Source of the DNA: Panorpa germanica
Taxonomy: Eukaryota > Arthropoda > Insecta > Mecoptera > Panorpidae
Direction: 5' to 3'
NCBI GenBank assembly: GCA_963678705.1
Contig: CAVMBN010000174.1
Span: 1-64,000 of the forward strand
DNA length: 64,000 bases
In this document: positions 10,343 through 48,241 of the stretch, piece after piece
Layout: the number at the start of each line of letters is the position of its first letter
Position numbering within the stretch: position 1 is the first letter of the stretch
Made by a program: the position numbers and the translations under genes
The notes under the pieces: generated by a model
Database searches by the model: none
What the model saw: only the letters and a program-made list of their open reading frames with translations
What the model was told of the DNA's origin: nothing

Positions 10343-10377
10343 CAGTGTGCCTTTGATAATGTCTGGTGGCTAAGTGA
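10343..10377 (+). repeat. Satellite unit 7, start only, broken by the copia/prominin block
   Basis: Only the first 35 bases of a unit remain (motif A region, AFDNVWW). The sequence then switches to prominin-like sequence read on the minus strand. The satellite resumes at 12697 at a different point of the unit, so about 0.6 kb of the unit is missing. This is not a clean insertion. Confidence 0.8.
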
Positions 10378-15827: not shown

Positions 15828-15936
15828 CATAGTGATTAATGCATATTTTTTTAATGTAAAATTATATAAATAAATGAACTTTTAAAAACAATTGTGATTT
15901 ATATTTTGATTTTGAAACTGAAATATATAAGTTACA

Positions 15937-19706: not shown

Positions 19707-19829
19707 GTATATTTTTAATGTAAAATAAATACATATTTATAATAACCAGTAGTTTTATTTATTTAAAATGTTATACAATATTTTTAGCATCTATCCAACT
19801 GTTATGAGATTTATCTAAACCTAACCACT

Positions 19830-20699: not shown

Positions 20700-20743
20700 A
20701 CTTATTATTATTACACAAAATTTATCAAGGACTAATATCTAAA

Positions 20744-21357: not shown

Positions 21358-21360
21358 TTA

Positions 21361-21887
21361 TATATTTGGTACCATTCGTGTTGGTGCTACTACATAGTCA
21401 TTTCTATCTGTTTTTTCATTACTTTTCTTATACAGTATACCCCTATCATCTAAATAATATTCATTTTTCTCCATATACTTAGTTTGCGTTATTAATTGTT
21501 TAATATGGGAATCACTAGCTTGTTCATTTTTAATTTAACACCAATCCCAATATGGATCTTCTTCAGCTGCTACGGCTGCAATACTTTCTGTTTCTATTCT
21601 ACTAAATGCATCGACATTACCGTGTTTTACCCCTGGCCTATAAATAATATCAAAATCGTAATCTGCTAAAGTTAAAGCCCACCGTGCTAATCTACTTTTC
21701 ATTGGATCTTTCATAGTCATTAACCAACATAATGATCGGTGATCTGTTCGAATCTTAAATTTCTTACCATATAAATATGTACGAAAATGTGATAAACTCC
21801 ATAAAATCGCTAAACATTCCCTTTCTGTGGTTGAGTAATTTTTCTTACATTTATTTAATTTACGAGAAGCGTATGCGACAGGACGTT
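21361..21887 (-). pseudogene. Ty3/gypsy copy A: RNase H and start of integrase
   Basis: Reads RPVAYASRKLNKCKKNYSTT, then FKIRTDHRSLCWLM and YRPGVKHGNVDAFSRIE, the RNase H and linker of a Ty3/gypsy Pol. After an in-frame TAA (21535) it continues with YYLDDRGILYKKS and VVAPTRMVPNI, the zinc-finger approach of the integrase. It ends at about 21360 at the Polinton 1 junction. It joins in frame with the sequence left of 31972 once the second Polinton is removed (DGVER, then RPVAYAS). Confidence 0.85.
21882..21887 (+). other. Target-site duplication GACGTT, left
   Basis: GACGTT directly precedes the Polinton 2 terminus and is repeated directly after the other terminus at 31967-31972. Removing the element and one copy restores an open gypsy Pol frame. 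Confidence 0.9.
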
Positions 21888-24270
21888 AGTAGGGTAGTAG
21901 AGCGGGTTCTGGCTTAAATTTGAAATTGAGTTGGAAATTATTGGAGGTGGGGATGCATTTAGGTCACGATATGCAGAGGGGGCGTGGCTACACTTGGAAG
22001 AATGTAAAAGGGGGTAATAGTGGGGTGAGGAGTGAGGTGGCGTGGCTAGACAATGGGGGGTAATAGTGGGGTAATATGAAAGAGTGAGATAGCGATATTA
22101 ATTATTACGTGTGTGTGTTAGTATAAGCAATAGTGGTAAAGAGTGAGATACCGATATTAATTCTTATGTTTGATTTGTTATTGGTTATAAGATTATGACA
22201 GTGTTAAATTATTTATAACAGTGTATTTATAGCGCATTCTTTCGAAATTTGCAAACAGCACATGTTCTCATGCCTTCGAATGTAACTTGAAGCACACGTG
22301 TTAGCCGGCGTCAGCACATGTTGTCATGAGAACTTCGTATATAAATTATTCTTATGCAATATGATAAAACAATATTTTCCAAACGTAGACAAATTTTTTG
22401 TTATACATTTTATGTTTTAGTTAAATGTTGGGTCGGATTGGGTATTGTTGTATTAGATTATTGATTTAAGTATACTAAAAGTTATAATATACGTACATTA
22501 TATCATTGATGATTGTCAAAGCATACAGTTATTTTTTTATGTGTTGTAATAATCATAAAGTCTTATAAGTCAGACAATGGTGTTGTTTTACATATATGAG
22601 GTTATAACACCACAGTAACTGTTAAAATAGTAGGAAAATATTTTATTATACAAATTTATTAGGTAGCGGTTTGATCCATATGTATGAGGCTATATAGGTT
22701 GTGGATAATAGTAGAATCACAATTAGCTAAACCAAAAGCTCTAACTTAAGTTGAAACAAACTTTTTAAAATAAAACTGCTCGAAGGGTCGGGGCCCCCGA
22801 GAATTTTATTTATTTTGAATGCGCGGGGATCATAGAATTAAGAATTGATAGTCTGATGGTAAATATATTATAGTATTAAATAAGTAAAGTGCTACCCTGT
22901 TAAATTTTTATATTATAATTTATATATAAGTTTAAGAATATGATTGTTGAGCGTAAGACCTATGTAACGGGATTCTGTTGGTGGAGGTGGTAAATTCATG
23001 TATAAATGTCACTTAAATAGAGATGATGTTGAGCTGTAATTACAGAGTAATATTTTCTTAGTGCAAGCTAAAGTTTAATAGTATGAACGGATTTAAGAAT
23101 ATTCCAGGCGTAACATGGTTATTGAATTCGGGAGATATACGCGTCGGCATTGACAGTGAAGATAGATATTATGTGCAGGATATAACTGACGATTTTGATA
23201 TAGATGATTGTGATTCAGATGATTGTGATTCAGATGATATGACGGATAAAGAAGAAAAGAAGACATACGAGAAAATTATAGAGAGTTATGCTGATGAAAT
23301 AATAATAGGTCACGAAGAAATTGAAATACAGGAAGAAGATTCTGATGTGGAAATCATAGAATTATTAGACGATGATAATGAAGTTATTGAAATATTAGAC
23401 TCTGACGATGAAATTGTAGAGGTGTTAGACTCTGATGACGAAATTGTAGAGGTGTTAGACTTTGATGACGAAATTGTAAAAGTATAACATAGTGATTAAT
23501 GTATATTTTTTATGTAAAATTATATAAATAAATGAACTTTTAAAAGCAATTGTTATTTATATTTTGATTTTGAAACTGAAATATATAATTTAAAATGGAT
23601 AACGGTTGTAAGATTATTAAGCATATGAGAACAATTATTGAACTGAAAAGTAATGCATTTAAGGTTGGGTTTTGAAATAAGTTTTAATTTTAATAAATAT
23701 TTTAATCATACATTGAATTTACATGACTTGAACAATATGAATACAAAATTGCATGACTTAACCAAATATGGGCACAAAATTTTTATAGTACACTTTTATA
23801 GAAATTAAGACATAGTACATAAACCCATTACCAAACAGTTTAACTCGGTCTCGGTTTGATTCGGTCAAGTTCGTCGATTCTCGTCATTTGCTATTTCATT
23901 TGACAGTTGTTACATTGTTTCGTTCCATACACTTATAAAAAATAGTTTTAGATACATTCTTTTATCTCAAGTTATATTTAAATAATAAATATATATAATA
24001 AAATATTATATTCTTGTCTGAGCGACGAGTATTTTGAGCAATACCGTTAGTAGGTTAAAGCATATTATTTCTTCGCATATTATGATTTCTTAGCTATATT
24101 TAAAAACTTAAAAAGGCTCTACATTACGCCTGATATAATGCAGCACTTTATACAGCTTCATACATGTTTCTCATACGCACTCAAATAATACATTTTAGGG
24201 TATCAATAACTAACCCTATATATTCACAGGATGTTCTTATAAAACTGTCTTATTTATATAATAAACTGTA
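21888..24270 (+). repeat. Polinton 2 left terminal inverted repeat (2.38 kb)
   Basis: Matches the complement of 29595-31966 almost base for base, apart from small differences. After the GC-rich end block come AT-rich sequence without genes, the acidic-protein gene (23083-23487) and the first 16 or so codons of a polymerase gene (ATG 23595, MDNGCKIIKHMR). Sequence unrelated to element 1 then runs to the end of the repeat. At 24000-24270 there is no gene. Confidence 0.9.
23083..23487 (+). CDS. Small acidic protein with tandem SUMO-interaction-like motifs (left copy)
   Basis: 134 codons, complete. Residues 1-40 (MNGFKNIPGVTWLLNSGDIR start) form a hydrophobic/aromatic head. Residues 40-65 are an Asp-rich spacer with a short repeat (DDCDSDDCDSDD). 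After a Lys/Glu helix-like stretch comes a tail of 10-residue repeats: VEIIELLDDDN, EVIEILDSDD, EIVEVLDSDD, EIVEVLDFDD, EIVKV. Each repeat is a hydrophobic V/I-x-V/I-L core followed by acidic residues and Ser, the form of a SUMO-interaction motif. No known family is recognised. An AATAAA-like signal follows at about 23525. SUMO binding is an inference from form only. Confidence 0.65.
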   Translation: MNGFKNIPGVTWLLNSGDIRVGIDSEDRYYVQDITDDFDIDDCDSDDCDSDDMTDKEEKKTYEKIIESYADEIIIGHEEIEIQEEDSDVEIIELLDDDNEVIEILDSDDEIVEVLDSDDEIVEVLDFDDEIVKV

Positions 24271-24936
24271 TTATGTACGCATACTCATACAATAATATGT
24301 CTATGCATATATATATATATATTAGAGCTCTTATGACCAGTGTTAATTATATAAGAACTAGCTGTCCCGGCCACGCGTTGCTGTACCTAACGTTTTTGTC
24401 ATATTACATTACATAGCGCCATCTATTGAATATTTACTCAATCTAGTCAACAGATTTCGATTTACTCAACAGAATATTTACTCAATCTAGTCAACAGATG
24501 TCGCCATCATCGTCGCCCGATGTCATATGTCATATACAGATAATTAATAGACAAATAATTAGCAATAAGATAAATAAATTGAGATGTAAGCTATCCTATC
24601 TTTCAAGTTGGGTCAAACTGCACACGGTGTACAAATTTCATTAAAATCGGTTAAGTAGTTTAGGAGTCCATAGGGGACAACACAGTGACACGTAATTTAT
24701 ATATATTAAGATTATATATAACAAAACATTACTAATAAAATATGTGTATCTTATTTTATATGGATGTATTAAAACATTAAATCTTATAATAATAAAACTC
24801 AATGGTTTGTGTTTATATATTATTATTTATTTATAAATATGCTATTTTTCAATTGTTATATAAATATACATTTTAATTATCTTAACTAAAACAGATATAA
24901 ATTTATACAAAACTTAAACTTAACTTAAAATTAGTA
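24271..24936. other. Polinton 2 internal non-coding region with a degenerate interspersed repeat
   Basis: Contains an AT microsatellite (about 24307-24330). From about 24355 to 24720 there is a repeat of a form widespread in insect genomes: it starts ACTAGCTGTCCCGGCC, includes TTTCATTAAAATCGGTTAAG and GTGACACGTAATTTATATAT, and ends in ATTAAGATTA. I read it as an RTE-type or SINE-like remnant. A 33-bp stretch, ATATTTACTCAATCTAGTC, is duplicated inside it (about 24430 and 24474). No gene. Confidence 0.5.
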
Positions 24937-27900
24937 CTAAATTTTATAATGTCCATGTGCTAAAGTACTTATACCATCAGTTAATACATAACTTTTATTA
25001 TCATTTCCACTAAGACCTACTTTACTTATCATTTGAGTATAAATTGTATGCTTAATAGATTTAAAGGTATTCATTGTGATCAATAATATGTTATCCTGAG
25101 ATAAACAATTTACATAATCTTTAATATTGAATTTGTTTACAATATTTTTCTTAATTCCTTTTGCTTTAGCTGTGCATGAACCCTCAATATCAATTGCATA
25201 CATTTTTGACCTTAACCTAACAAACTCCCAAATTATACTACTCGCGCATTCATCTTTCATTAAGCCTAATTTAGCTTTGTTCATTAAAGGTAATGAAAAT
25301 TCATTATTAAATGGATAATTAGATGTATCAAATTTATCTAGATTACACTTAATATCGTCATATATATCATCTGTTTTAATTTGATATATTAATGAATCTG
25401 TATCTGTATACAACAATTTAGCATTACCTTTATAGATTTTTTTTGATGAAATCATAATAAAAATCGTATATTAAAGTTTTTTGATATATCAAGTACACTT
25501 TATCCTAAATACAATGGTTTATTATAAAAAACTTTAAGTTTTTGCATTTGAATAGCAACTAAGTTTTCATGAAATATAGAACAACTATGATAGTTTGGTT
25601 TACTTATAAGTGTATTAGCACCCATTGTTTTTCCTATATTATCCCAATGAGTTATTAACTTTACATCAACACGTTTATCTACATTTTCCATTGTTTTACC
25701 ATAAACTGAATTATTCATTATTTTAAAAAAGTTTTTTCTCAAATGTATTTGCAGAGTTCTTTCTTTTTAATGTATTTAGATCAATATAACTTTTTAACCA
25801 ATCAGACTGTTTAAATTCCAAAATTCTATGAATTTTATCTATTTTCAGATTATTTTTAAGACATTGCTTTAACGATCTATTGTGAAGCACATAATTATAC
25901 TTGTTATTTAGATTTGGTATTAATTTAACGTCATTTGTTTTAATGCAAGGTGGTTTAATATTTTCGGCACAGAAAGGTAGATCATTGTGTTCATCGTGCA
26001 AATAATTAGGATATCTTAAATCGACTTCTAATATATAACCAACATCTGAGTTATCTTCAATAGCTTTAGTTATTTGCATCCCAATACATTAAATATTGAG
26101 AATCTTTATTTAAATCATAATTGGACATATATTTATTATTTGCAATTCCATGTCTGTGAGAGCATTGTGATATTCCACCTCTTATACCTTTTTTTAATAA
26201 AATGTAACATATCAATATTTGTTAAAAGTTCTAATTCAATACTTGTATAATTTAACATAGCATCCCAAGAAAGTCCTGGTGCTGTATAATATTGACAGGG
26301 ATCTAAATTATATGTTTTATAGCAAAATATCTGTTAACAACAGAACATCGATCTTTAAATATAAGTCTGAATATTCCCCCAATGTTTTCATTTCAAATGC
26401 ATACCAAACCATTTTGGCATGATTGTAATCATCGTCAGATATATTACAGCCATTAAGTGAGCTATAAAAATTATTTTGAGATGGCAAGTCAGATTCATTA
26501 AGCATATCCCTACTATTCACATATTCATAAGGAAATACACCTTTACGTTTTAATAAATTGAAATGATTTTCATTCGGATAGAATTTTTTAATTCAAAAAA
26601 TTGTTCTGATAATAAATTTTTTGCAAGTGTTTCTAAACTAGAATGCATAAATCGTAAAGAATCAATAAATCTAAGTTTAATATGGCAGTTATGAACTTTA
26701 TCATTTTTATCGACTTTTGATTCCACCAAAATATGTTTCGTAAAAGATATATACTTTTCCTTATTTTCTGGAATAACTTCAATTTTTTCACTATCATTAC
26801 CTAATTCTTTTACAATTATATGGCTATCGTAATTACTTAAGTTATGGAATATGACAGGTATAAACTTTGGAATTGTAAATTTTAAATTGCAATGATTATG
26901 AGCAGCTCCTCGGTAATTACCAGTTAAATGACAATGATATAACACTTTATCACCATTGAGGATACCTTCACAAATATGACAAATAGAAGCTTCATCATAT
27001 TCCTGTTTTTGCCAATCAGATAATTTATTTAAAGGCTTCACTTTATTTAAGACTTTATAAATTTGTTTAGCGTCTTCAGTTATTGTTTCAATAAATACTT
27101 TAACGCAATTAATACCTCTGTACGTATCAGTTATTGTTTCAATAAATACTTTAACGCAATTAATACCTCTGTACGTAACAAACTTACTTAAGGAATCATT
27201 AAAGGAACATTTAATATAATAAGCAAAAGAATATGGTTCATGAATTTGAATAATATTTGAAAATGATGTATATTATATGTTTTATAGCACACATCTCGAA
27301 AATTTTCAAAAATATCTGTTAACAACAGAACATCGATCTTTAAATATAAGTCTGAATATTCCCCTAATGTTTTCATTTGCAATGCATACCAAACCATTTT
27401 GGCATGATTGTAATCATCGTCAGATATATTACAGCCATTAAGTGAGCTATAAAAATTATTTTGAGATGGCAAGTCAGATTCATTAAGCATATCCCCACTA
27501 TTTACATATTCATAAGAAAATACACCTTTACGTTTTAATAAATTGAAATGATTTTCATTCGGATAGAATTTTTTAAATTCGAAAAATTGTTCTGATAATA
27601 AATTTTTTGCAAGTGTTTCTAAACTAGAATGCATAAATCGTAAAGAATCAATAAATCTAAGTTTAATAAAGCAGTTATGAACTTTATCATTTTTATCGGC
27701 TTTTGATTCCACCAAAATATGTTTCGTAAAAGATATATACTTTTCCTTATTTTCTGGAATAACTTCAATTTTTACACTATCATTACCTAATTCTTTTACA
27801 ATTATATGGTTACAATTACTTAAGTTATGGAATATTACAGGTATAAACTTTGGAATTGTAAATTTTAAATTGCAATGATTATGAGCAGCTCCTCGGTAAT

Positions 27901-28765
27901 TACCAGTTAAATGACAATGATCTATCACCATTGAGGATACCTTCACAAATATGGCAAATAGAAGCTTCATCATATTCCTGTTTTTGCCAATCAGATAATT
28001 TATTTAAAGGCTTCACTTTATTTAAGACTTTATAAATTTGTTTAGCGTCTTCAGTTATTGTTTTCAATAAATACTTTAACGCAATTAATACCTCTGTACG
28101 TAACAAACTTACTTAAGGAATCATTAAAGGAACATTTAATATGGTTCATGAATTTGAATATTATTTGAAAATGATGTATTAGTTTCAGGATAACAAGTAC
28201 TAATGGGTTTTAATAATGTTTCAAAATCTCCATATATCACAAATGGAACGCGTAATTGATTCTTATGATTATCGAATTGTTAAATGTTTTGAGATATCAT
28301 ATTACCCAATTTATCTTTAGCGTTATACTTAGAAGGAAGGATTGTATATATCTTATTGCAATCATATTCTAAATTTCTATTTAACTGATCTTCTGTGTTA
28401 AAAAATGAAAAGCATCCATCACACAAAAATTGTTTACTAGTATGCTTAGTGAATTGACTTCTAATTAATCTTGATATATTTTTAATCCAACAATAATGTC
28501 CATTACTCAAATCTTCAATATACAATAAATTAACATGTTGTTTCTTCTTTTTAGATGTATAATGCAACGGTCCCACAATGAAATTATTTTCAAGTCCATA
28601 AACATTCACACTTATATCATTATTCTTTTCAAATGGTCTAATATCTTTTAATTTCATCGGTAATTCTATACCATTTGAATTAAGTACTTTTGAATAATGT
28701 GGATATGATGTAACTCTATCCATACTTTTTGATGCTGGATACAATGCTGAAGTTATAGCCCACAT
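24937..28765 (-). pseudogene. Polinton 2 DNA polymerase B, broken and internally duplicated
   Basis: Minus-strand polymerase of the same family as at 15937, but of a clearly different sequence lineage. Readable parts in order: MWAITSALYP (28765), a Cys-rich FLCDGCFSFF, exonuclease VIYGDFETLL, CHICEGILNGD/HCHLTGNYRG, FIDSLRFMHSS, YLKIDVLLLTDI, MYWDANN (motif A, then a stop and deletion), IMNNSVYGKTMEN (motif B) and LLYTDTDSLIY (motif C intact). The N-terminal 160 residues or so are missing. A block of about 0.95 kb carrying HCHLTGN to the LLLTDI region is present twice. It is not translatable as one protein. Confidence 0.85.
26311..28180. repeat. Direct tandem duplication of about 0.95 kb inside Polinton 2 polymerase
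   Basis: 26311-27275 and 27276-28180 repeat the same polymerase segment. Anchors such as TATGTTTTATAGCA (26311, 27276) and CATTTTGGCATGATTG (26411, 27394) recur with a spacing of about 0.97 kb. The copies differ by substitutions and indels, for example a 19-base loss near 26324. A further small duplication, CAGTTATTGTTTCAATAAAT (about 27077 and 27126), lies at the junction. Confidence 0.85.
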
Positions 28766-29047
28766 AAAGCAAGCTTAATCATTATTTACTACATTTACTA
28801 TAGCCTTTTTATCTTTAACTGACAAAAGAATGTTAATTATTAGGTATTATTATACTTTTGCTGTATATGAACATGAATTTCAAAAATAAACAATTACACA
28901 AAATAATATTTCGATTTTCTTTTTATCTAAACTAGAAACACTTTAAAGACTGCGTTCATTAACAATGTATAGTGGATTTTATTATTTCTGCAGGATGTCA
29001 TCTCACTTGCTGACACTAAAGGTTATATTTGATAACCATGACTTAAA
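28766..29047. other. Polinton 2 internal non-coding sequence
   Basis: AT-rich sequence upstream of the polymerase remnant. It starts where the polymerase homology is cut (CFMWAITSALYP). I see no gene and no repeat in it. Confidence 0.4.
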
Positions 29048-29262
29048 AGGCTCCTATTTTGTAACTGCTTACCTGACAGCTGATAACTTCTGACAATTTT
29101 TCAAAGGCCTATATTTTACAAATTACGCTACTCATACCAGTTCCAAGGTATAGGATCCGTGTTGCTTTTTATTTAATGTCTTCTGATAGTTTTGTCTTAA
29201 CTTACATAGCTTAATTTAGAAAATATATAGACGTCCGGTAAACAGTTAGAAAATAGGAGCCT
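29048..29262. mobile_element. Putative MITE (215 bp)
   Basis: Imperfect terminal inverted repeats of about 26 bp. The left end starts AGGCTCCTATTTTGTAACTG and the right end closes with CAGTTAGAAAATAGGAGCCT, with three mismatches in the arm. There is no coding capacity and no clear target duplication, so the superfamily is open. Confidence 0.5.
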
Positions 29263-29594
29263 CATTTCTGTAAAAGTATGTTTATAAAGTTGGCTACCAG
29301 AACCTCAAATATTTAGTTATTTTTTAATATATTGCAATACAATAAGAGATATTTACACATCTATCGTAACTATTTCAATAATTTATATATTTGTTATTTT
29401 ACTATCTCTTTTATATAAGTGTCTAAAGCAAAAGAAAGTACACTATGCAGAGAATCTATAGAATATTAACATCTCAACATTGTATATGATGTAGAGTAAT
29501 GTATTAGAAACAAAAAGTGTTTAGCAAAAAAAGGTTAACTACAAACGTGGTTTATAGTTAATAATAATTACAAACAAAGGTTTAAGTGATACAA
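29263..29594. other. Polinton 2 internal non-coding sequence before right inverted repeat
   Basis: AT-rich sequence in which I see no gene or terminal motif. It ends at TACAGTTTAT, where the inverted repeat begins. Confidence 0.35.
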
Positions 29595-31966
29595 TACAGT
29601 TTATTATATAAATAAGACAGTTTTATAAGAACATCCTGTGAATATATAGGGTTAGTTATTGATACCCTAAAATGTATTATTTGAGTGCGTATGAGAAACA
29701 TGTATGAAGCTGTATAAAGTGCTGCATTATATCAGGCGTAATGTAGAGCCTTTTTAAGTTTTTAAATATAGCTAAGAAATCATAATATGCGAAGAAATAA
29801 TATGCTTTAACCTACTAACGGCATTGCTCAAAATACTCGTCGCTCAGACAAGAATATAATATTTTATTATATATATTTATTATTTAAATATAACTTGAGA
29901 TAAAAGAATGTATCTAAAACTATTTTTTATAAGTGTATGGAACGAAACAATGTAACAACTGTCAAATGAAATAGCAAATGACGAGAATCGACGAACTTGA
30001 CCGAATCAAACCGAGACCGAGTTAAACTGTTTGGTAATGGGTTTATGTACTATGTCTTAATTTCTATAAAAGTGTACTATAAAAATTTTGTGCCCATATT
30101 TGGTTAAGTCATGCAATTTTGTATTCATATTGTTCAAGTCATGTAAATTCAATGGATGATTGAAATATTTATTAAAATTAAAACTTATTTCAAAACCCAA
30201 CCTTAAATGCATTACTTTTCAGTTCAATAATTGTTCTCATATGCTTAATAATCTTACAACCGTTATCCATTTTAAATTATATATTTCAGTTTCAAAATCA
30301 AAATATAAATAACAATTTCTTTTAAAAGTTCATTTATTTATATAATTTTACATAAAAAATATACATTAATCACTATGTTATACTTTTACAATTTCGTCAT
30401 CAGAGTCTTACACCTCTACAATTTCGTCATCAGAGTCTAACACCTCTACAATTTCATCGTCAGAGTCTAATATTTCAATAACTTCATTATCATCGTCTAA
30501 TAATTCTATGATTTCCACATCAGAATCTTCTTCCTGTATTTCAATTTCTTCGTGACCTATTATTATTTCATCAGCATAACTCTCTATAATTTTCTCGTAT
30601 GTCTTCTTTTCTTCTTTATCCGTCATATCATCTAAATCACAATCACCTGAATCACAATCATCTATATCAAAATCGTCAGTTATATCCTGCACATAATATC
30701 TATCTTCACTGTCAATGCCGACGCGTATATCTCCCGAATTCAATAACCATGTTACGCCTGGAATATTCTTAAATCCGTTCATACTATTAAACTTTAGCTT
30801 GCACTAAGAAAATATTACTCTGTAATTACAGCTCAACATCATCTCTATTTAGGTGACATTTATACATGAATTTACCACCTCCACCAACAGAATCCCGTTA
30901 CATAGGGCTTACGCTCAACAATCATATTCTTAAACTTATATATAAATTATAATATAAAAATTTAACAGGGTAGCACTTTACTTATTTAATACTATAATAT
31001 ATTTACCATCAGACTATCAATTCTTAATTCTATGATCCCCGCGCATTCAAAATAAATAAAATTCTCGGGGGCCCCGACCCTTCGAGCAGTTTTATTTTAA
31101 AAAGTTTGTTTCAACTTAAGTTAGAGCTTTTGGTTTAGCTAATTGTGATTCTACTATTATCCACAACCTATATAGCCTCATACATATGGATCAAACCGCT
31201 ACCTAATAAATTTGTATAATAAAATATCCTCCTACTATTTTAACAGTTACTGCGGTGTTATAACCTCATATATGTAAAACAACACCATTGTCTGACTTAT
31301 AAGACTTTATGATTATTACAACACATAAAAAAATAACTGTATGCTTTGACAATCATCAATGATATAATGTACGTATATTATAACTTTTAGTATACTTAAA
31401 TAAATAATCTAATACAACAATACCCAATCCGACCCTACATTTAACTAAAACATAAAATGTATAACAAAAAATTTGTCTACGTTTGGAAAATATTGTTTTA
31501 TCATATTGCATAAGAATAATTTATATACGAAGTTCTCATGACAACATGTGCTGACGCCGGCTAACACGTGTGCTTCAAGTTACATTCGAAGGCATGAGAA
31601 CATGTGCTGTTTGCAAATTTCGAAGGAATGCGCTATAAATACACTGTTATAAATAATTTAACACTGTCATAATCTTATAACCAATAACAAATCAAACATA
31701 AGAATTAATATCGGTATCTCACTCTTTACCACTATTGCTTATACTAACACACACACGTAATAATTAATATCGCTATCTCACTCTTTCATATTACCCCCCA
31801 TTGTCTAGCCACGCCACCTCACTCCTCACCCCACTATTACCCCCTTTTACATTCTTCCAAGTGTAGCCACGCCCCCTCTGCATATCGTGACCTAAATGCA
31901 TCCCCACCTCCAATTATTTCCAACTCAATTTCAAATTTAAGCCAGAACCCGCTCTACTACCCTACT
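29595..31966 (-). repeat. Polinton 2 right terminal inverted repeat (2.37 kb)
   Basis: Complement of 21888-24270, about 11 bp shorter, with scattered substitutions (for example GTTGGGTCGG against GTAGGGTCGG near 31434). The high similarity means either a recent insertion or copying between the two arms during protein-primed replication. Confidence 0.9.
30408..30782 (-). CDS. Small acidic protein with tandem SUMO-interaction-like motifs (right copy)
   Basis: Inverted-repeat twin of the gene at 23083. It is 124 codons long because a TTA codon of the last repeats reads TAA at 30408-30410. It therefore ends after the second EIVEV and loses the terminal repeat. The spacer differs (DSGDCDLDD). The head domain is identical to the left copy over its first 40 residues. 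Two gene copies per element follow from placing the gene in the inverted repeat. Confidence 0.62.
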   Translation of the reverse strand: MNGFKNIPGVTWLLNSGDIRVGIDSEDRYYVQDITDDFDIDDCDSGDCDLDDMTDKEEKKTYEKIIESYADEIIIGHEEIEIQEEDSDVEIIELLDDDNEVIEILDSDDEIVEVLDSDDEIVEV

Positions 31967-31972
31967 GACGTT

Positions 31973-33464
31973 CTACTCCATCTTGAACTTGGCTTAGGAT
32001 TGCGCCTAATGCGATTCCTGATGCATCTGTACCTAATATAAATTCTTTACTAAAATCTGGGTAAGCTAAAACTGGCTCAGAACATAACGCGTTTTTTAAT
32101 GCTTCAAAACTTTTCTTTTGTTCAGGTCCCCAAATAAATGTCTCATTTTTGCTTTAAGTCAGTTTTGTTAGGCTTGATGATAATTCTGAAAAATTCTTTA
32201 TAAATCGTCTATAAAATGAAGCTGTCTGTTTTCGGACGCGGATAGTTTTTAATTACTTCTGTTTTTTCTGGATCTGCCTTTACACTATCACTAGAAATAA
32301 TATGACCAAGATATTGCGTTTCTTTATTCATAAATTCACATTTGCTAGGCTTCAATGTCAAACTTGCTTCTATCAAGCGATCGAAAACCTTTTTAATTCT
32401 CTGGATATAATATTATCTACGTAAACTAAACAATGTACTCCGGTTAAACCTGCTAACACTGCATACATAAGTCTCTGAAATGTAGCAGGAGCTGATACTA
32501 ACCCAAACGGCATAACATTAAATTGAAGGTGTAAATCAGGTGTTGAAAATGCTATTAATTCTTTAGATTTTTCGTCCATTTCAATTTGCCAAAATCCCGA
32601 TGCTAAATCTAATTTGGTAAATAAACTTGCTATGCCTAATTTATCAAGAGTGTCTACTAAGTGTGGTAATGCAAAGTAATCTCTTTTTGTTATTGCGTTA
32701 AGACCCCTGTAATCTATGCAAACTCTAACCTTGTTTTCCCCATTTTCTGCTTTCTTATTTTCAAGAACAACATTACTGGACCACGGTGACATTGATGGTT
32801 CTACTATGCCATCTTTAAGCATTTGATCTATATGTTCTCTCAGTACTTGTAACTGCGCGTGTGGAACTCTATATGGTTGTTTAGTTATAGGAGGAATATC
32901 TTGAATTATTATCTTATGTTTAACTATCGAGGTAGTTTTCAATTCTTGACCTTCTGTTAAGAATATGTCGCGATATACGTAAATTAAATTTTCCATTTTA
33001 CTTTGGTCTCTAGCACTTAGATGATTTAACTTTATTTTACTAAAAAGTTCCGTTATTCTCTGTGTTTTATTTATCTCTTCATTCTTATGACTTTTTTGCT
33101 TCCACTGATTTGTAACTTCATGTATAATTTTATCTTCTTTAGCAGTTAAATTATTATAACTTATTTCAATTAATAATTGTATATTTTCAATCCCTGTGTT
33201 TGCTTCTGTTGATCGTACAGCACCAATTAAAATATTTTTAATTTTATGTCGGACGTGTTCTCTTAATAATTCAACTGTTTCAGTATATTTGTTATCATAT
33301 GGCTCTATTATACCTATCTTAGTATTTATTGGTATATTTATATTCTTTTGCCCCTTACATATTGAATTTACACTTCTAACTACTAATACTCCATCTACGG
33401 TCAATTCTGGATTAAAAATCCCATGACCTTCCTTAATGTCTTTTTGAAATGCATGAACATTCAT
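31973..33464 (-). pseudogene. Gypsy copy A reverse transcriptase (second pol ORF)
   Basis: The ORF starts at 33464 (MNVHAFQKDIKEGHGIFNPE) and is open for 363 codons to 32373. RT motifs: KVRVCIDYRGLN (residues 245-256), LFTKLDLASGFWQ (281-293; catalytic Asp286), FNVMPFGLVSAP (315-326) and the active-site box YVDN (348-351), where the second Asp of YVDD has become Asn. After a frameshift, RT and RNase H remnants (LTLKPSKCEFMNKETQYLGH, LGTDASGIALGAI) continue to the Polinton insertion at 31972. Its ATG overlaps the stop of the upstream pol ORF as ATGA, an arrangement also found in copy C. Confidence 0.85.
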
Positions 33465-34860
33465 TTTACATCGGGGCGGAAGCGTTCTTGCTCTAATAAC
33501 CTAACACTATACCGATTACTACTACACGTATGTGCGTCTGATCGCTTTCGAATGGTTTCAGATTTTTTATTCATATTTATGTTTATTTTTTCAACTCGCT
33601 CAGCTGTGTTTATTCTTTTTAACCACTTTCTTTGTAAATTCTTCCATTTCTTTACCTGTTCTTGGACTTTAATATTCTTTTTGTCAATGTTATCTTTTAA
33701 ATCTTTATCATTTTTATTTATTAAACAGTTCATATATCTTTTTTCATCTTTTTCCGATTCGCCATCATAGAATGCTATCTTTATTTTACATTCCGAAAAT
33801 ATATATTCAATCATTTTACTCACTATTTTAAAATCTAATTTATCTTGCCCACATGCTATGTATGGTAATGCAATAAATTTCACTTTATTTTCTAACATAT
33901 GATCCCTTAATTTAATTATTGACAAATATAAATCTGCGTAGAGAGGTTTCTCGTTACTTCTCTTCTTTGTTACTAAATAATATATAAAACGATTTTTATC
34001 TTTTAATATAGCTAATCCCCCCTTTTTCTGTTTCTGTTTCAAAAGCTGCTCAACTCTACCAAATCTTTCTTTAAATTCAACTGCTATTCCTTGTGACATA
34101 CGTAAATCTGAGGCTACACAATGACCCAATGCATACTTGCTAGATGCATTAAACAAATCTCCCTTATTAAAATTTATTTTGCACAACGTCTCTATCGTTG
34201 GAAATCTACTAATTTTCCATTTTAGAAAATCATCAAAACTTTTATAGTCATGCCCTATCTTATCAATTCGCTGATTATTTACTTCTCTTTTTTCGTCAAT
34301 ATTTTCCGTTTCAGTACAACCTATATTTGTACCTTTTCTATTCTTTTCTACGATTTTCCCTGACTTTAATATAATACGCTTTTGCTTTCTAACGATACGA
34401 TTTACATTTTCTCTAATCATATTATTTATATTTAAATTATCTCTCTGAAAATCATGTACAGTATTACGATTAATGTCGTAAATAACGTTTCTATATATTA
34501 AAATACCCTTTCCAAAATCTACAATTATCCCAAATTTACGAAGAAAGTCTAACCCAATTATCCCTGTCCAATTTTCCATATTTTCTACAATTTCAAAATC
34601 AAAAGTCACATTATCCCCAAATAAATCTAACTTTAATTTGCTTTTACCAAGTGTATGTATTTTATTATTTTGTGCATCTCGCAAAATAATTTGCGATTCT
34701 GTAATTTTTTCCGTTTTTTAACATTCTCTAGTTAGTAGGCTGGCGCCTGCACCACTATCTATAAGAACGTTGCAATTTTGACCATTAATTATTAAATTAG
34801 GAAACCATTGATTATCATGAAATGCCGGTACATACAGAGGTGTAAGATTACCCTTTTTAC
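33461..34860 (-). pseudogene. Gypsy copy A protease plus TARG1/OARD1-like macrodomain (first pol ORF)
   Basis: Protease: NVLIDSGAGASLL (Asp-Ser-Gly at 34751-34759), then an in-frame TAA at about 34720, after which 407 codons are open (34684-33461). Residues 35-70 finish the protease (WTGIIGLDFLRKFGIIVDFG). After a basic linker, residues 168-306 (nt 34183-33767) form a macrodomain: NKGDLFNAS, ALGHCVASDLRMSQGIAVEF, FIYYLVTKKRSNEKPLY and FIALPYIACGQDKLDF. This is the layout of TARG1/OARD1, an enzyme that removes ADP-ribose from acidic residues. The two residues used there, a Lys in the TKK segment and an Asp in the GxD segment, are Lys240 and Asp281 here. A basic tail (residues 310-407) follows. 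A domain of this kind is not standard in Ty3/gypsy Pol. Confidence 0.85.
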
Positions 34861-35988
34861 TTATTGAATGGCTTCTACGTCTCGGGTAGTGAGTGAAGCC
34901 ATCAACTCGTTTAAATTATCTTCATAATTATTGGACGCGCGTAAATTTCTTTCTTCAACTTCGCTTGGCTTATTTTCGATGCTTCGAATATTTCTATTAC
35001 TTTGGAAAGTAACTGATTCCTGTCGCTGATTCCTGGCAGGACTACGGCTATCATTATACACTTGCAGGACTCTAACTCTCCCTAATCGGTCATTACTTTG
35101 CTTACGGTTTTCATACCTATTTGAACTGCGATTTCTTTGAAATCGATCTCCTACGTCCTTAACGGGACGTTGAGGACGGCTACGACAGTCTCTCTGAAAA
35201 TGTCCTAATCTGTTACAATTGTAACACCTTACTCCATCTCTTTGCCTATTATTAAACATTCGGCTTTGTGAACCGCTGCGCGAGTTGCTAGGTCGCATAA
35301 ACGATTGATTATTTTGAGATGCGCGATTTACATAATAGTGGTCGGCTCTGTTTATTCGGTTAGTTCCACCTGTAGCAATCTCTGCTACGTAGCCTTGCTT
35401 CGATGAGATTAAATCATCGGTTTCTACCCTTTCTGCAATTTCAACGGCGTTATTAAAACTCTTGGGATCCGCGGCCCCAATAAACTTAGAATATCGCTGC
35501 GATATCCCTTCTTTAAACCTTTTTAAAACGGCTACTTGTAACTCAACTGTAAGCTTCTTTTCTTGCTGTTTATCAGTTGCTTCTGGTACACATTTTGACC
35601 CTAATGCCCATAATCTTTGTAAAAATTTATAAACAGTCTCGTTATGTCTTTGTTTACAACCCCCGAACTCAATTTCTGCTTGTCTCAGAGCAGATAGCCC
35701 TTTTCTGCTATATCTAGACAATAATGCATTACGAATACTTATATAACTACGGTTCTCACTTTAAACCTCCAAATTAGACAAAAGATATTCAGCTACATCA
35801 GGCGACACTTTCGCAAATACGGTAACTGATTGCACCTTATCGGTCTAATCCAACAATTCTGCCATTTGATCCACCGCATTTAAAAATGTTGCTATGCTAC
35901 CTGTACCGTCAAAGAATGGTATATAATTGTATCGTTTTAATTTAGGAATTTCTGGGGCAATATCTACGTTTGTTTCATTAGTTGTCAT
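34861..35988 (-). pseudogene. Gypsy copy A Gag with CCHC zinc knuckle
   Basis: ATG at 35988 (MTTNETNVDIAPEIPKLKR). Two in-frame stops lie in the N-terminal part: TAG at about 35848 in 'ELLD*TDKV' and TAA at about 35762 in 'LEV*SEN'. From 35721 it is open for 286 codons. It contains a capsid-like region (RQAEIEFGGCKQRHNETVYK, FKEGISQRYSKFIG), an Arg/Asn/Ser-rich segment and a zinc knuckle CYNCNRLGHFQRDC (CX2CX4HX4C, about 35205-35225). The stop at 34861 is followed in the -1 frame by the protease. That frame is open backwards through the gag end, so a -1 shift could join them. No obvious slippery heptamer was seen. Confidence 0.85.
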
Positions 35989-36337
35989 TTTAACTATTTG
36001 GAATAAACTTTCAATCAAATAAAATCCTTAAATAAGCTTCAATAAACTACTACAAATATTTTAAAATCTTAGACGTTAAAAGAAAGAGAGAAAAAATAAA
36101 CTATTTTTAAAAGTAAACAATACCTTACACGTTCGCATCGACACTCCTTGGTGAATGCACGTGTTTACAACAAACAAAACAATAAAATAAATAGTGATCT
36201 TTTTTTGCATATTATAATATTTTTTTTCTTTTGTTTTTCTGATTTATTTGTATTTAAATTATAATTTTATTATTATTAAGTGATATTACTAAGAAGTGAA
36301 GTAACTTTTATTTAATTATCACTGGTTAATTAACAAT
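35989..36337. other. Junction region: gypsy leader and I-element 5' end
   Basis: The left part (to about 36130) is AT-rich leader upstream of the gypsy gag on the minus strand. The right part leads into the I-like element on the plus strand, with homopolymer T runs at about 36200-36235. The exact element boundary is not visible and I find no LTR here. Confidence 0.4.
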
Positions 36338-41371: not shown

Positions 41372-41557
41372 TTTAAGTTAGAATATTTTATTTAGTATGT
41401 ATTTAATTTTAAGTTTAATTTTTTAAAAGAATCAATTTGTTTGTATTTATTAGAATAATTATAATTTATATGTAAATTTTTATATAATTTTACAAATAAA
41501 ACCAATGGCAAGAAGGTTGAATAAGCCAAAGCCTAAATAAAAAAAAAAAAAAAAAAA
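41372..41557 (+). other. I-like element 3'UTR and poly-A tail
   Basis: AT-rich tail ending in GAATAAGCCAAAGCCTAAAT and a run of about 18 A. AATAAA occurs at about 41495. The following base begins gypsy sequence. Confidence 0.7.
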
Positions 41558-42363
41558 TCTACCAAATCTTTCTTTAAATTCAACTGCTATTCCTTAAGAC
41601 ATACGTATTTCTGAGGCTATACAATGACCCAATGCATACTTGCTAGATGCATTAAGCAAATCTCCCTTATTCAAATTTATTTTGCACAACGTCTCTATCG
41701 TTGGAAATCTACTAATTTTCCATTTTAGAAAATCATCAAAACTTTTATAGTCATGCCCTATCTTATCAATTCGCTGATTATTTACTTCTCTTTTTTCGTC
41801 AATATTTTCCGTTTCAGTACAACCTATATTTGTACCTTTCCTATTCTTTTCTACGATTTTCCCTGACTTTGATATAATACGCTTTTGCTTTCTAACGATA
41901 CGGTTTACATTTTCTCTAATCATATTATTTATATTTAAATTATCTCTCTGAAAATCATGTACAGTATTACGATTAATGTCGTAAATAACGTTTCTATATA
42001 TTAAAATACCCTTTCCAAAATCTACAATTATCCCAAATTTACGAAGAAAGTCTAACCCAATTATCCCTGTCCAATTTTCCATATTTTCTACAATTTCAAA
42101 ATCAAAAGTCACATTATCCCCAAATAAATCTAACTTTAATTTGCTTTTACCAAGTGTATGTATTTTATTATTTTGTGCATCTCGCAAAATATTTTGCGAT
42201 TCTGTAATTTTTTTCGTTTTTTAACATTCTCTAGTTAGTAGGCTGGCGCCTGCACCACTATCTATAAGAACGTTGCAATTTTGACCATTAATTATTAAAT
42301 TAGGAAACCATTGATTATCATGAAATGCCGGTACATACAGAGGTGTACGATAACCTTTTTTAC
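41558..42363 (-). pseudogene. Gypsy copy B: protease and truncated macrodomain
   Basis: Minus-strand copy of the first pol ORF. It is cut at 41558 inside the macrodomain by the I-like element's tail. An extra stop lies in 'RMS*GIAVEF' (about 41597). The protease motif LIDSGAGASLL is intact, and the TAA after LLTREC is at the same place as in copies A and C. Both catalytic positions of the macrodomain lie beyond the cut and are missing. Confidence 0.85.
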
Positions 42364-43334: not shown

Positions 43335-44220
43335 TACACCCGATGCTAAATCCCGATGCTAAATCTAATTTAGTAAATAAACTTGCTTTGCCTAATTTAT
43401 CAAGAGTGTCTACTAAGTGTGGTAATGGAAAGTAATCTCTTTTTGTTATTGCGTTAAGACCCCTGTAATCTATGCAAACTCTAACCTTGTTTTCCCCATT
43501 TTCTGCTTTCTTATTTACAAGAACAACATTACTGGACCACGGTGACATTGATGGTTCTACTATGCCATCTTCAAGCATTTGATCTATCTGTTCTCTCAGT
43601 ACTTGTAACTACGCGTGTGGAACTCTATATGGTTGTTTAGTTATAGGAGAAACATCTTGAATTATTATCTTATGTTTAACTATCGAGGTAGTTTTCAATT
43701 CTTGACCTTCTGTTAAGAATATGTCGCGATATTCGTAAATTAAATTTTCCATTTTACTTTGGTCTCTAGCACTTAGATGATTTAACTTTATTTTACTAAA
43801 AAGTTCCGTCATTCTCTGTGTTTTATTTATCTCTTCATTCTTATGACTTTTTTGCTTCCACTGATTTGTAACTTCATGTATAATTTTATCTTCTTTAGCA
43901 GTTAAATTATTATAACTTATTTCATTAAATAATTGTATATTTTCAATCCCTGTGTTTGCTTCTGTTGATCGTACAGCACCAATTAAAATATTTTAAATTC
44001 TATGTCGGACGTGTTCTCTTAATAATTCAACTGTTTCAGTATATTCGTTATCATATGGCTCTATTATACCTATCTTAGTATTTATTGGTATATTTATATT
44101 CTTTTGCCCCTTACATATTAAATTTACACTTCTAACTACTAATACTCCATCTACGGTCAATTCTGGGTTAAAAATCCCATGACCTTCCTTAATGTCTTTT
44201 TGAAATGCATGAACATTCAT
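43335..44220 (-). pseudogene. Gypsy copy C reverse transcriptase, truncated
   Basis: Starts MNVHAFQKDIKEGHGIFNPE at 44220, with a frameshift near 43993, an indel near 43925 and a stop near 43610. It keeps VRVCIDYRGLNAITKRDYFP and LFTKLDLASGF, then ends at the junction, before the active-site box. The ATGA overlap with the upstream ORF (44217-44220) matches copy A. Confidence 0.83.
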
Positions 44221-45616
44221 TTTACATCGGGGCGGAAGCGTTCTTGCTCTAATAACCTAACACTATACCGATTACTACTACACGTATGTGCGTCTGATCG
44301 CTTTCGAATGGTTTCAGATTTTTTATTCATATTTATGTTTATTTTTTCAACTCGCTCAGCTGTGTTTATTCTTTTTAACCACTTTGTTTGTAAATTCTTC
44401 CAATTCTTTACCTGTTCTTGGACTTTAATATTCTTTCCGTCAATGTTATCTTTTAAATCTTTATCATTTTTATTTATTAAACAGTTCATATATCTTTTTT
44501 CATCTTTTTCTGATTCGCCATCATAGAATGCTATCTTTATTTTACATTCCAAAAATATATATTCAATCATTTTACTCACTATTTTAAAATCTAATTTATC
44601 TTGCCCACATGCTATGTATGGTAATGCAATAAATTTCACTTTATTTTCTAACATATGATCCCTTAATTTAATTATTGACGAATATAAATCTGCTTAGAGA
44701 GGTTTCTCGTTACTCCTCTTCTTTGTTACTAAATAATATATAAAACGATTTTCATCTTTTAATATTGCTAATCCCCCCTTTTTCTGTTTCTGTTTCAAAA
44801 GCTGCTCAACTCTACTAAATCTTTCTTTAAATTCAACTGCTATTCCTTGTGACATACGTAAATCTGAGGCTATACAATGACCCAATGCATACTTGCTAGA
44901 TGCATTAAACAAATCTCCCTTATTCAAATTTATTTTGCACAACGTCTCTATCGTTGGAAATCTACTAATTTTCCATTTTAGAAAATCATCAAAACTTTTA
45001 TAGTCATGCCCTATCTTATCAATTCGCTGATTATTTACTTCTCTTTTTTCGTCAATATTTTCCGTTTCAGTACAACCTATATTTGTACCTTTTCTATTCT
45101 TTTCTACGATTTTCCCTGACTTTGATATAATACGCTTTTGCTTTCTAACGATACGATTTACATTTTCTGTAATCATATTATTTATATTTAAATTATCTCT
45201 CTGAAAATCATGTACAGTATTACGATTAATGTCGTAAATAACGTTTCTATATATTAAAATACCCTTTCCAAAATCTACAATTATCCCAAATTTACGAAGA
45301 AAGTCTAACCCAATTATCCCTGTCCAATTTTCCATATTTTCTACAATTTCAAAATCAAAAGTCACATTATCCCCAAATAAATCTAACTTTAATTTGCTTT
45401 TACTAAGTGTATGTATTTTAATATTTTGTGCATCTCGCAAAATATTTTGCGATTCTGTAATTTTTTCCGTTTTTTAACATTCTCTAGTTAGTAGGCTGGC
45501 GCCTGCACCACTATCTATAAGAACGTTGCAATTTTGACCATTAATTATTAAATTAGGAAACCATTGATTATCATGAAATGCCGGTACATACAGAGGTGTA
45601 AAATTACCCTTTTTAC
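44217..45616 (-). pseudogene. Gypsy copy C protease and macrodomain
   Basis: The protease has the DSG motif and the same TAA after LLTREC as in the other copies. The macrodomain is complete in content (GDLFNASSKYALGHCIAS, YYLVTKKRSNEKPL, YIACGQDKLDF). It is interrupted by a TAA at 44694, where copy A has Tyr in 'KPLYADL'. Both TARG1-type catalytic residues, Lys and Asp, are encoded. This is an independent second record of the macrodomain in the family. Confidence 0.85.
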
Positions 45617-46133
45617 TTATTGAATGGCTTCTACGTCTCGGGTAGTGAGTGAAGCCATCAATTCGTTTAAATTATCTTCATAATTATTGGACGCGCGTAA
45701 ATTTCTTTCTTCAACTCCGCTTGGCTTATTTTCGATGCTTTGAATATTTCTATTACTTTGGAAAGTAACTTGTCGCTGATTCCTGGCAGGACTACGGCTT
45801 TCATTATATACTTGCAGGACTCTAACTCTCCCTAATCGGTCATTACTTTGCTTACGGTTTTCATACCTATTTGAACTGCGATTTCTTTGAAATCGATCTC
45901 TTACGTCCTTAACGGGACGTTGAGGACGGCTACGACAGTCTCTCCGAAAATGTCCTAATCTGTTACAATTGTAACACCTTACTCCATCTCTTTGCCTATT
46001 ATTAAACCTTCGGCTTTGTGAACCGCTACGCGAGTTGCTAGGTCGCATAAACGATTGATTATTTTGAGATGCGCGTTTTACATAATAGTGGTCGGCTCTG
46101 TTTATTCGGTTAGTTCCACCTGTAGCAATCTCT
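45617..46133 (-). pseudogene. Gypsy copy C: Gag lacking its N-terminal half
   Basis: Same N-terminal deletion as copy B. It is open from residue MRPSNSRSGSQSRRFNNRQR (46048) through the zinc knuckle CYNCNRLGHFRRDC to the stop at 45617. The -1 frame into protease is again open across the gag end. Confidence 0.82.
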
Positions 46134-46315
46134 CAAATTTCCCTTTATTTTCTTAAATTAAATTTTCCACTTAATGACCTTTTTCTAAATTATTCAAATT
46201 TCTGCCTTTTTTAACATCCCACAATTTTAATATCCCTTTTTAACATATTCCACAATTTTTATATCCCTTTTTTAAAGGACCTCTTTTTTAACACACCCCA
46301 CACCTGACACCAAAA
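46134..46315 (-). other. Gypsy copy C leader with primer-binding site
   Basis: Nearly the same leader as in copy B. The minus strand reads TTTTGGTGTCAGGTGTGGGG directly after the LTR. Confidence 0.72.
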
Positions 46316-47053
46316 TGTAACCCTACCCCTTATATCTACTATCTATATATGGGGGTAGTTACTTATTTTAAGAGAGCGATTCTATAATCCTCTCTAACGA
46401 TAGGTTCTTTTATAGTGATCTGGCTCACCTTGAGTCGGATGACCTGAGCTAATTTTGGATGTCTTATTTATCTATCAGGACTTAGTACTTCTTCTGATAA
46501 TATTACATAAATATATTAGGTTTTACTTACTTTTTGTGTTCTGCATGCTGCTTTCTCTGCTTTTAAACAATCACTTTATTTTAACGCGACACGACCGTTA
46601 AATCTAAGTACTTTACAATTAAAACAATGTATTCATTTACACTTATTTTCTTTATTGAACAATCAATTATTAAATACAATTCTTAAGTAATTCTTTTAGT
46701 AACTTTACATTCTTTAAATTGAAGCGACCGACTAATACCCGAACCACCGACTAAGAGGCGCTTCTCCCTATTTGACGGGGTCTGATTAAACTGACCTTTC
46801 GACTAAGTCTCGACGTACTAACTAAGCTGATCAAGATGGACTGATTTTAGAATCCCTTTTTTCTTAGGTTTGTATAGCTTAAAAAATCTTTGCTTAAACA
46901 TATGAACTCATTTGAACTCTAGCTATGTTTATCTTAAATCCAAATGTCATTTCGTCATCCTTTCTTTGAATATTAGTGTTTGGTTTTAATATAAACTATA
47001 TTTGAAACTTTACGTGCTTTGAATAAAGGATTAGTTAATTAATATTTCGGACA
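46316..47053 (-). repeat. Gypsy copy C 5' LTR (about 738 bp)
   Basis: On the minus strand it starts TGTCCGAAATATTAATTAAC (47053) and ends GGGGTAGGGTTACA (46316). The 5' border is inferred from the TG start and the return of satellite sequence at ACACCTTGCGCG. It has a CATCTTGATCAGC-like stretch at about 46830 and repeated GACTAA words (46725-46815). No gene. Confidence 0.7.
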
Positions 47054-48241
47054 CACCTTGCGCGAGTCACAAGGATGGAATGAAGCTTAAACTCGGCAAC
47101 TATGCCAACACTATACAAGGGGGCATTTATGTTAATGGTTGTGTATTGTGCTTGAGCATGGTATTACAGGATCAATCTTCCAGATCTTCCATGCAAAGAA
47201 ATATGTTATTGACGATGACGCGTTGTTGCAAAACTGTATCTACAGAAGTGGTGCAGGTGATATTGGGGACAATTTCTTTAGATTTAAATATCACTCATGC
47301 TAAGTGCTTACTCAAGTACAAATTACGCTAGAACTGAAAAAATCAAATTTTGATGATTTAAAATTAATGCGACAAACTTCGAGGATTTAAAGTTAATGCG
47401 GCAGTAGGATAAAAGTCTGGAGACGATACCAAATATATTGCTAAAGAGATGAATGCATATATGCATAAGCTCTGGCAAGACAGTTGGGACTTAATACAAA
47501 AAGGAAGACCTACGTATTGGTTTACAAGGACGTTAATATTGCTTTGCAACACTAGTTGTTCCTATCTACTATGTGTGTGATCGGCTCCTGCTACTTTAGG
47601 TGAAAAAAGTGATTAAAAGTAAGAAATTAATTACAGAAAAAAAAATAATAAATTATATAAATACTTTTTCAAACGAAAAGTATTTAAGTTTGTTTAAAAT
47701 TTGTGTTAATTTACCCTAAACAAAGAGTTTTTACAAAAGTTTGACAGTTGGAAACCAGTGTTAAAAACGAATTTTTCATTACGCGTACACGCGGTCTTAT
47801 AAACATAACCTCAAATTTGTAACTTTGATGTGTGATATAAGACATTAATAAGTGCGATAGACAAAAAAAGTGATAATAATTAGGTTAGTGTTAGTGCTAA
47901 AACATCAAGTGGTTAAGAAATTTAAGAAATCAGTAGAGTTTTATAAGTAAGACCTCATATAAACACTACAAATATACGGAAGACAAAAGGTTGCTGCCCA
48001 CTATCAAGTAAGTCGATTAACATTAACTATAAATAATATTAAAACATAAGAATTAGTTTATATAAATGCGTGTTTAAAATAATAAAGAGAGAGCATTAAT
48101 TGATATAAGTGATTAATTAAACAATATATTCGGTTTTCTTGTAAATAGTGATTGATCGTTCATGAACATTCAATGGTAACAAACAAATGGTAAGTAAGTA
48201 GGCATAAGTACAAGTATGTACATGAGATATTTATAGAAATT
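47054..48241 (+). repeat. Satellite unit 9, resumed part
   Basis: The satellite restarts inside the RT region (CACCTTGCGCGAGTCAC) and continues to the next anchor. It has a 4-base insert, 'ATGCTAAGTGC', near 47297 and several private changes in the AT-rich half. Confidence 0.9.

Follow-up and report, generated by a model that had tools for sequence, protein, structure and literature searches.

TARG1-type macrodomains in the Pol polyproteins of several Ty3/gypsy retrotransposon lineages of Panorpa germanica

Is a macrodomain of the TARG1/OARD1 class a genuine part of the Pol polyprotein of insect Ty3/gypsy retrotransposons, and if so, what could it do there? The question is raised by a stretch of 64,000 nucleotides (the window) at the start of a 169-kb contig of Panorpa germanica (Insecta, Mecoptera; CAVMBN010000174.1, positions 1 to 64,000, from the 464-Mb assembly GCA_963678705.1), which holds three related gypsy copies, A, B and C. 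An original prediction, made from the letters alone, had placed a TARG1/OARD1-like macrodomain with both catalytic residues between the protease (PR) and the reverse transcriptase (RT) of copy A, had taken it for a family trait rather than a chance insertion, and had proposed that it might oppose host defence by poly-ADP-ribose polymerases (PARPs). The features on which the identification rests are the following:

33767..34180, minus strand: TARG1/OARD1-type macrodomain of copy A (protein P0001, residues 180-317; E 8e-36 to 4j5r, and alignment)
33965..33967, minus strand: codon of Lys251, the counterpart of catalytic OARD1 Lys84 (alignment; position counted from the start of the reading frame at 34717)
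33842..33844, minus strand: codon of Asp292, the counterpart of catalytic OARD1 Asp125 (alignment; counted in the same way)

All five of the motifs quoted for the domain are found in an open reading frame (ORF) of copy A that encodes 418 amino acids (33461-34717, minus strand; P0001). In a phmmer search of PDB sequences, its residues 180-317 matched human OARD1/C6orf130 (4j5r, 2l8r and 2eee) with E-values of ~8e-36 to 1e-35, pairing without a gap with chain residues 7-144 of 4j5r at 46% identity over 138 residues. The match covers the full domain, confirming the class assignment, and an E-value of 8e-36 rules out chance similarity to TARG1. Both catalytic residues are present as well; the residues previously numbered Lys240 and Asp281 are Lys251 and Asp292, 11 positions later, and align with OARD1 Lys84 and Asp125. 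In the loops, family F1, to which copy A belongs, has MSQG and ACG where OARD1 has MGAG and GCG, so that Gly43 and Gly123 are kept, while Gly41 is replaced by Ser and Gly121 by Ala. The placement was also correctly read: the RT lies 3' of the domain in another frame, and the DSGA part of the protease and gag lie 5'. A profile search gave a divided answer, as the strong phmmer match stands beside a Pfam Macro score of only E 0.024, which is under the model cut-off; the domains of families F2 and F3, described below, pass it. Routine annotation could therefore miss domains such as that of copy A.

All three window copies are defective, and they belong to one Ty3/gypsy family, F1, that recurs in the assembly. 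Our macrodomain search scored 150 of 585 candidates, which makes all locus counts lower bounds; F1 was found at no fewer than 56 loci with at least 85% identity (57 rows, two of which represent one copy). In at least nine of them, open frames of 1571-1638 amino acids run through the domain. One of these copies, on contig C21 (L036 and L078), has a gag with a CCHC motif and a 1638-residue frame, in which Pfam recognises, in pieces, the order PR-macro-RT and then RNaseH, integrase zinc finger, rve and integrase C-terminal domain; at least 372 bp of its two long terminal repeats (LTRs) are identical, marking a recent insertion. A macro match lies upstream in 41 of 44 F1-like RT copies (at least 84% identity), exactly 1021 nt away in 15 of them and at most 3063 nt away, and three of the 44 have none among the matches listed. 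These counts, the frames of up to 1638 residues that run through the domain and its apparent constraint show that it belongs to the family and is not a chance insertion. Two further explanations fall with this result: a host gene hit by a gypsy insertion is ruled out by the presence of the domain inside long Pol frames at many loci, and a capture peculiar to the broken copies of the window by the long frames elsewhere in the assembly. All 39 F1 loci that we read have Lys84, and 38 of them have Asp125, the exception being a Glu.

Counting F2 and its relative F6 as one, six lineages beside F1 carry the domain, each of which was read at one or two loci. In F2 (L060), an ORF in gag position that lacks a Pfam match is followed by a 1389-residue frame with the order PR-RT-RNaseH-macro-integrase (IN). 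Its LTRs of 649 bp are 100% identical, again the sign of a recent insertion, and are followed by TTTGGTGTCAGAAGTGGGAT, which we take to be a motif of the primer-binding-site type. The domain is nearly universal here too, with a macro match downstream in 64 of 65 F2-type RT copies (at least 74% identity; 18 with the 1389-residue frame), in 34 of them at a distance of exactly 841 nt, and both dyad residues are found in all 18 copies with the 1389-residue frame (10 of 10 in an earlier, overlapping set). F6 (L064) is a broken F2 relative with the order RNaseH-macro-IN; the locus contains two F6 parts, a direct repeat ~6.05 kb apart, each with RNaseH-macro parts. F3 (L061) has RT-RNaseH-macro-IN with a broken IN, and F5 (L063) shows the same order, followed by an open ORF of 626 amino acids (1442-3322) for a Baculo_F-type envelope (E 6.8e-61). 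Errantiviruses carry an Env of this type. F7 (L075) and F8 (L076) are both arranged as PR-RT-RNaseH-macro-IN; their domains are unscored by Pfam Macro and were recognised through the OARD1 search and alignment. As a separate observation, 13 of the 150 RT matches that were scored against F1, on several contigs, lie in frames of exactly 1652 amino acids, the frame length of F8. F4 (L062) resembles F1 in having gag and then PR-macro-RT-RNaseH-IN, in 1526 amino acids. A third position is seen in P0012, a Pol protein of 1191 amino acids from another sequence source (tagged lgn, presumably Logan), which reads PR-RT-RNaseH-IN-macro, with the domain after IN. Because a protein search with the P0012 domain returned P0012 alone, this protein is the one case of a Pol-borne domain beyond the present genome. 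Throughout F1, F2, F3, F5 and P0012, the dyad, Gly43 and Gly123 are kept, even though the domains are mutually only 28-45% identical.

In later searches with a profile built from the F1-F8 domains, matches in these lineages arise by construction, and L085, L086, L089 and L090 serve as the tests. L090 has a much weaker macro match between PR and RT; for L089, an RT relative of F1 and F4, no macro match was retrieved within 2 kb. The remaining two loci, which represent the macro-free lineages N1 (L085) and N2 (L086), are taken up below.

To what extent is the domain under selection? Loci that score best by protein similarity, from which our first sets, the first dyad counts and the pairwise dN/dS values were drawn, favour conserved copies, and for this reason we read all 18 F2 copies with the 1389-residue frame and nine more F1 copies. 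The 18 F2 copies were picked by frame and not by domain similarity, which lessens the bias for F2; the added F1 copies lessen it to a smaller degree for F1. The p-values that follow are rough, as the copies are related. In the 18 frame-picked F2 copies, the domain shows 16 synonymous and 12 nonsynonymous distinct changes (p 6e-4, against a neutral nonsynonymous fraction of 0.74), and in the best-scoring F2 set of 11 copies 28 and 22 (p 1e-5). For F1, the corresponding numbers are 35 and 59 in 31 copies (p 0.002) and 26 and 37 in 22 of the 30 best-scoring loci (444-nt match; p 0.002), and a comparison of F8 with F8b gave 13 and 9 (p 5e-4). Pairwise dN/dS in the best-scoring F2 set was 0.18 for the macrodomain and 0.16 for RT/RNaseH; in the long-frame F1 copies it was 0.33 for the macrodomain, 0.36 for PR and linker, 1.94 for the following linker and 0.10 for RT. 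A value of 0.58 for the downstream region of F2 was set aside, as the alignment behind it was poor. The macrodomain hence looks constrained by selection in F1, F2 and F8, most clearly in F2.

Several observations weigh against a conserved enzymatic role. The eight long-frame F1 copies on their own, with 7 synonymous and 11 nonsynonymous changes, give no significant deficit (p 0.12), and the nine added F1 copies on their own stand at 19 and 37 (p 0.058). F2 compared with F6 carries no signal (2 synonymous, 6 nonsynonymous), and the tendency of similarity-picked loci to favour conserved copies has been less mended for F1 than for F2. The three copies of the window show no constraint either: over 419 codons, A and C differ by 14 nonsynonymous and 3 synonymous changes and by one stop, which indicates that they drift. 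Active sites have moreover decayed: F4 has lost the dyad, with Arg and Cys in its place, F8 lacks the catalytic Asp and the GCG loop, and F7 lacks the GCG loop only, although the frames of all three are open and the domain of F8 looks constrained. In most element copies a Ser replaces Gly41 of the binding loop, and F1 has Ala for Gly121. Finally, no domain was detected in N1 and N2, both relatives of F7, even when the long spacer between their RNaseH and IN was searched with filters off.

Where did the domain come from? On contig C19 (L080) we found a host TARG1-like gene in three pieces with intron-like gaps between them; its first loop reads MGSG. Among the 150 scored matches, not all of which were inspected, it is the sole one recognised as a TARG1-class host gene. 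By eye, its C-terminal part resembles the flea protein P0007, and flea proteins are the nearest named cellular relatives of the element domain. Two further host macrodomain genes were found with Pfam Macro, which we assume to be MACROD-like and GDAP2-like. In contrast to the split host gene, the element domains have no gaps, as expected of capture via RNA. Between the eight domain-bearing lineages, RT-RNaseH identity is 39-63%. In a midpoint-rooted RT-RNaseH tree, F1 and F4 form one clade (96/94), and F3, F5, F7 and F8 another, which includes the macro-free N1 and N2 (99/97), with F2 and P0012 outside both. N1 and N2 are sisters of F7 (100/99) and by eye have a spacer segment in common with it, so that domain loss is the simplest reading for them. 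In the macro tree the backbone stays unresolved, and a single clade of eight element rows was not rejected (approximately unbiased test, p-AU 0.149; F4, F8, F8b and P0010 left out), so that the number of captures has to be read from position and RT clade. That the domain sits at three Pol positions, in separate RT clades, suggests repeated capture or relocation. It is a tentative proposal, to which we give a little less than even weight, that the TARG1-type domain was captured at least three separate times at three Pol junctions, including that of a lineage with Env, and later decayed or was lost in some sister lineages, as part of an arms race over ADP-ribosylation between retroelements and their host in a non-vertebrate animal.

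Four other accounts of the domain have to be considered. That mis-assembly or chance similarity created it can be regarded as refuted, as dozens of loci, spread over many contigs, have it within long Pol frames, and so does a protein of another sequence source. It could also be captured host sequence that is carried along neutrally without a function. The drift of the window copies, the absence of the domain from N1 and N2 and the lack of a significant bias in F2 versus F6 or in the eight long-frame F1 copies by themselves would agree with such a passenger, but the nonsynonymous deficit in F1, F2 and F8, its presence in 64 of the 65 F2 RT copies and the long open frames through it in at least nine F1 loci disfavour this account, which we consider improbable.

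If the domain has a function, it need not be the removal of ADP-ribose. One alternative, unlikely in our judgement but the strongest of the four, is that of a reader, which would recognise ADP-ribose or poly-ADP-ribose on chromatin and so steer the integration complex, in the way that chromodomains steer the integration of chromoviruses. This would fit its location next to integrase in most lineages (RNaseH-macro-IN in F2, F3, F5, F6, F7 and F8, and after IN in P0012) and the continued constraint in F8 without the catalytic Asp. However, the domain lies between PR and RT in F1 and F4, binding would not need the near-strict Lys/Asp dyad of F1 and F2, and F8 and F4 are also missing loop residues with which known macrodomains bind ADP-ribose. 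Somewhat less likely still is a structural role within Pol, such as folding, the spacing of cleavage sites or the binding of a new ligand, which would make the ADP-ribose chemistry a relic. The decayed active sites of F4, F7 and F8 and the very weak copy in L090, in frames that have stayed open, together with the constraint in F8 despite decay, would fit such a role; a mere spacer, by contrast, would not have kept the dyad, Gly43 and Gly123 across F1, F2, F3, F5 and P0012 at 28-45% identity.

The remaining features of the window concern the state of its three copies, which are mutually 97-99% alike:

34861..35990 (start approximate), minus strand: gag of copy A with CCHC zinc knuckle and two in-frame stops near the N-terminus (Pfam and sequence)
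34448..34858 (ends approximate), minus strand: aspartic protease of copy A, with the DSGA part, a TAA at 34718-34720 and the C-terminal part (IIGLDFLRKFG), read by eye
33461..33766, minus strand: linker between macrodomain and RT of copy A, with the 3' end out of frame (SVRLLEQ..; from the sequence)
32373..33500, minus strand: pre-RT region and RT of copy A (RVT_1, E 3e-20)
31971..32372, minus strand: RT/RNaseH part of copy A up to a Polinton-like element (31971-32347 matches L078 2602-3001 at 90%)
21883..31971, no strand assigned: Polinton-like element inside copy A, with long inverted ends and a 6-bp target duplication, GACGTT
21360..21882, minus strand: RNaseH part of copy A beyond the Polinton-like element (96.9% to the F1 copy on C21, L078 2076-2598)
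43348..46592, minus strand: gypsy copy C, gag N-terminus deleted; macrodomain at 44523-44933, broken by a TAA
41555..43339, minus strand: gypsy copy B; N-terminal part of the macrodomain only (41555-41698), cut at the poly-A end of a long interspersed nuclear element (LINE)

None of the three copies is intact, since the protease-region TAA is common to all of them and the frame break before RT to A and C; a gag deletion is shared by B and C and absent from A. The claim that the second copy, C, also has the catalytic residues is correct for both, but a TAA at codon 260 separates them, and the third, B, does have the N-terminal part of the domain, which stops at a poly-A run inside the domain and contains a TAA of its own. 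The protease, read by eye in copy A, is detected by Pfam in the F1 copy on C21. Copy A continues through RNaseH and is split by the Polinton-like element, as both halves match adjoining stretches of this long-frame relative; the inverted ends of the insertion (21883-24272 and 29593-31971) are 98.8% identical. PR, RT and RNaseH of copy A are thus present, while its integrase was not recovered, and no LTRs were found for it.

Elsewhere in the window, repeat arrays with units ~1.58 kb apart, mostly 91-97% alike and containing an RT fragment, occupy 1-10400, 12697-14813 and 47051-64000. Parts of a second Polinton-like element (15367-20738) comprise a minus-strand rve integrase and a long plus-strand ORF that by eye resembles DNA polymerase B and has no Pfam match, and a prominin-like host gene fragment lies at 10605-11135. 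On contig C121 (~44557-58150; G000), a cluster of F1 copies resembles that of the window, one of them being 99% identical in the domain; the cluster is perhaps a duplicate or an alternative version of the window region.

How does the element domain compare with known systems? It is homologous over its full length to TARG1/OARD1 (C6orf130), of the ALC1-like class, and has counterparts of Lys84 and Asp125 in element copies; unlike TARG1, which is a free protein, it is part of a retrotransposon Pol, and some element copies lack the dyad. The elements themselves have the PR-RT-RNaseH-IN order, LTRs and (in F1 and F4) CCHC gag of Ty3/gypsy (Metaviridae), but, unlike the usual Pol, theirs has an additional enzyme-like domain, placed between PR and RT, at the junction of RNaseH and IN, or behind IN. 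Retroviral dUTPase similarly sits inside Pol at domain junctions, including that between RNaseH and IN; it too is an accessory enzyme at a Pol junction, but an unrelated one, so that the likeness is by analogy only. Outside retroelements, the Banna virus protein VP5 (P0011) contains a TARG1-type macrodomain at residues ~437-574, with the dyad present and an MS-x-G loop as in the elements. It is ~47% identical to the F1 and F2 domains, although VP5 is a protein of a seadornavirus with double-stranded RNA and not a Pol, and the macro tree leaves a common origin open. A scan of viral contigs gave 27 loci with a best identity of 37%, which point to DNA viruses or phages, as 21 of the 27 contigs are longer than 50 kb.

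Macro domains have been described in other retroelements: according to a passage in PMC4977317, citing Basta et al. 2009, fish Epsilon-like endogenous retroviruses carry one as an additional ORF. These are vertebrate endogenous retroviruses rather than Ty3/gypsy Pol, and the passage states neither class nor placement. Captured host enzymes that act on a regulatory mark are likewise reported for orchid Ty3/gypsy elements with an N6-methyladenosine (m6A) demethylase domain (PMC9289625) and for retrotransposons with a DNA methyltransferase (PMC5890265), where enzyme, mark and hosts differ from ours. In the open-access literature, we found no report of a macrodomain in the Pol of an LTR retrotransposon. 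The capture of a host enzyme by a retrotransposon is of a known kind; what appears to be new, within this literature, is the TARG1 class in the Pol of Ty3/gypsy elements, found at several junctions and with signs of selection.

Among the explanations considered, we lean, with modest confidence, towards the view that several Ty3/gypsy lineages built a TARG1-class macrodomain into Pol, where it would act as a particle-packaged ADP-ribosyl hydrolase that counters PARP activity. As its sequence looks constrained in the families tested, the domain is probably useful to the element and probably helps it against, or around, ADP-ribose signalling. It would descend from cellular ADP-ribosyl hydrolases and, if expressed within Pol, should reach the particle, be freed there, probably by the element protease, and be on hand during reverse transcription and integration; this placement makes us favour the element's own particle, cDNA (including its ends) or integration complex, or host proteins nearby, as the site at which ADP-ribose would be removed. 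According to PMC7050489, TARG1 takes ADP-ribose off Glu/Asp and nucleic-acid ends and can release whole polymers. If catalytically active, the Lys/Asp dyad of the element domain would analogously strip off ADP-ribose attached to Glu/Asp side chains or to the ends of nucleic acids, so that PARP activity would be countered during reverse transcription and integration. The decayed active sites of F4 and F8 imply that the need for such an activity is not universal.

The proposed role against PARP-type defence would have parallels, as coronaviruses and alphaviruses erase ADP-ribose against host PARPs. The ALC1-like class also occurs in bacterial toxin-antitoxin pairs, as a passage of PMC7050489 notes for DarTG. 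If it is true that TARG1-type domains of retrotransposons counter PARPs, ADP-ribosylation would be a front line against transposons, a question that can be tested with one small domain. The macrodomain inside Pol offers a survey marker for arthropod genomes, and the lineages form a ready-made series in which the active site is intact, decayed or lost.
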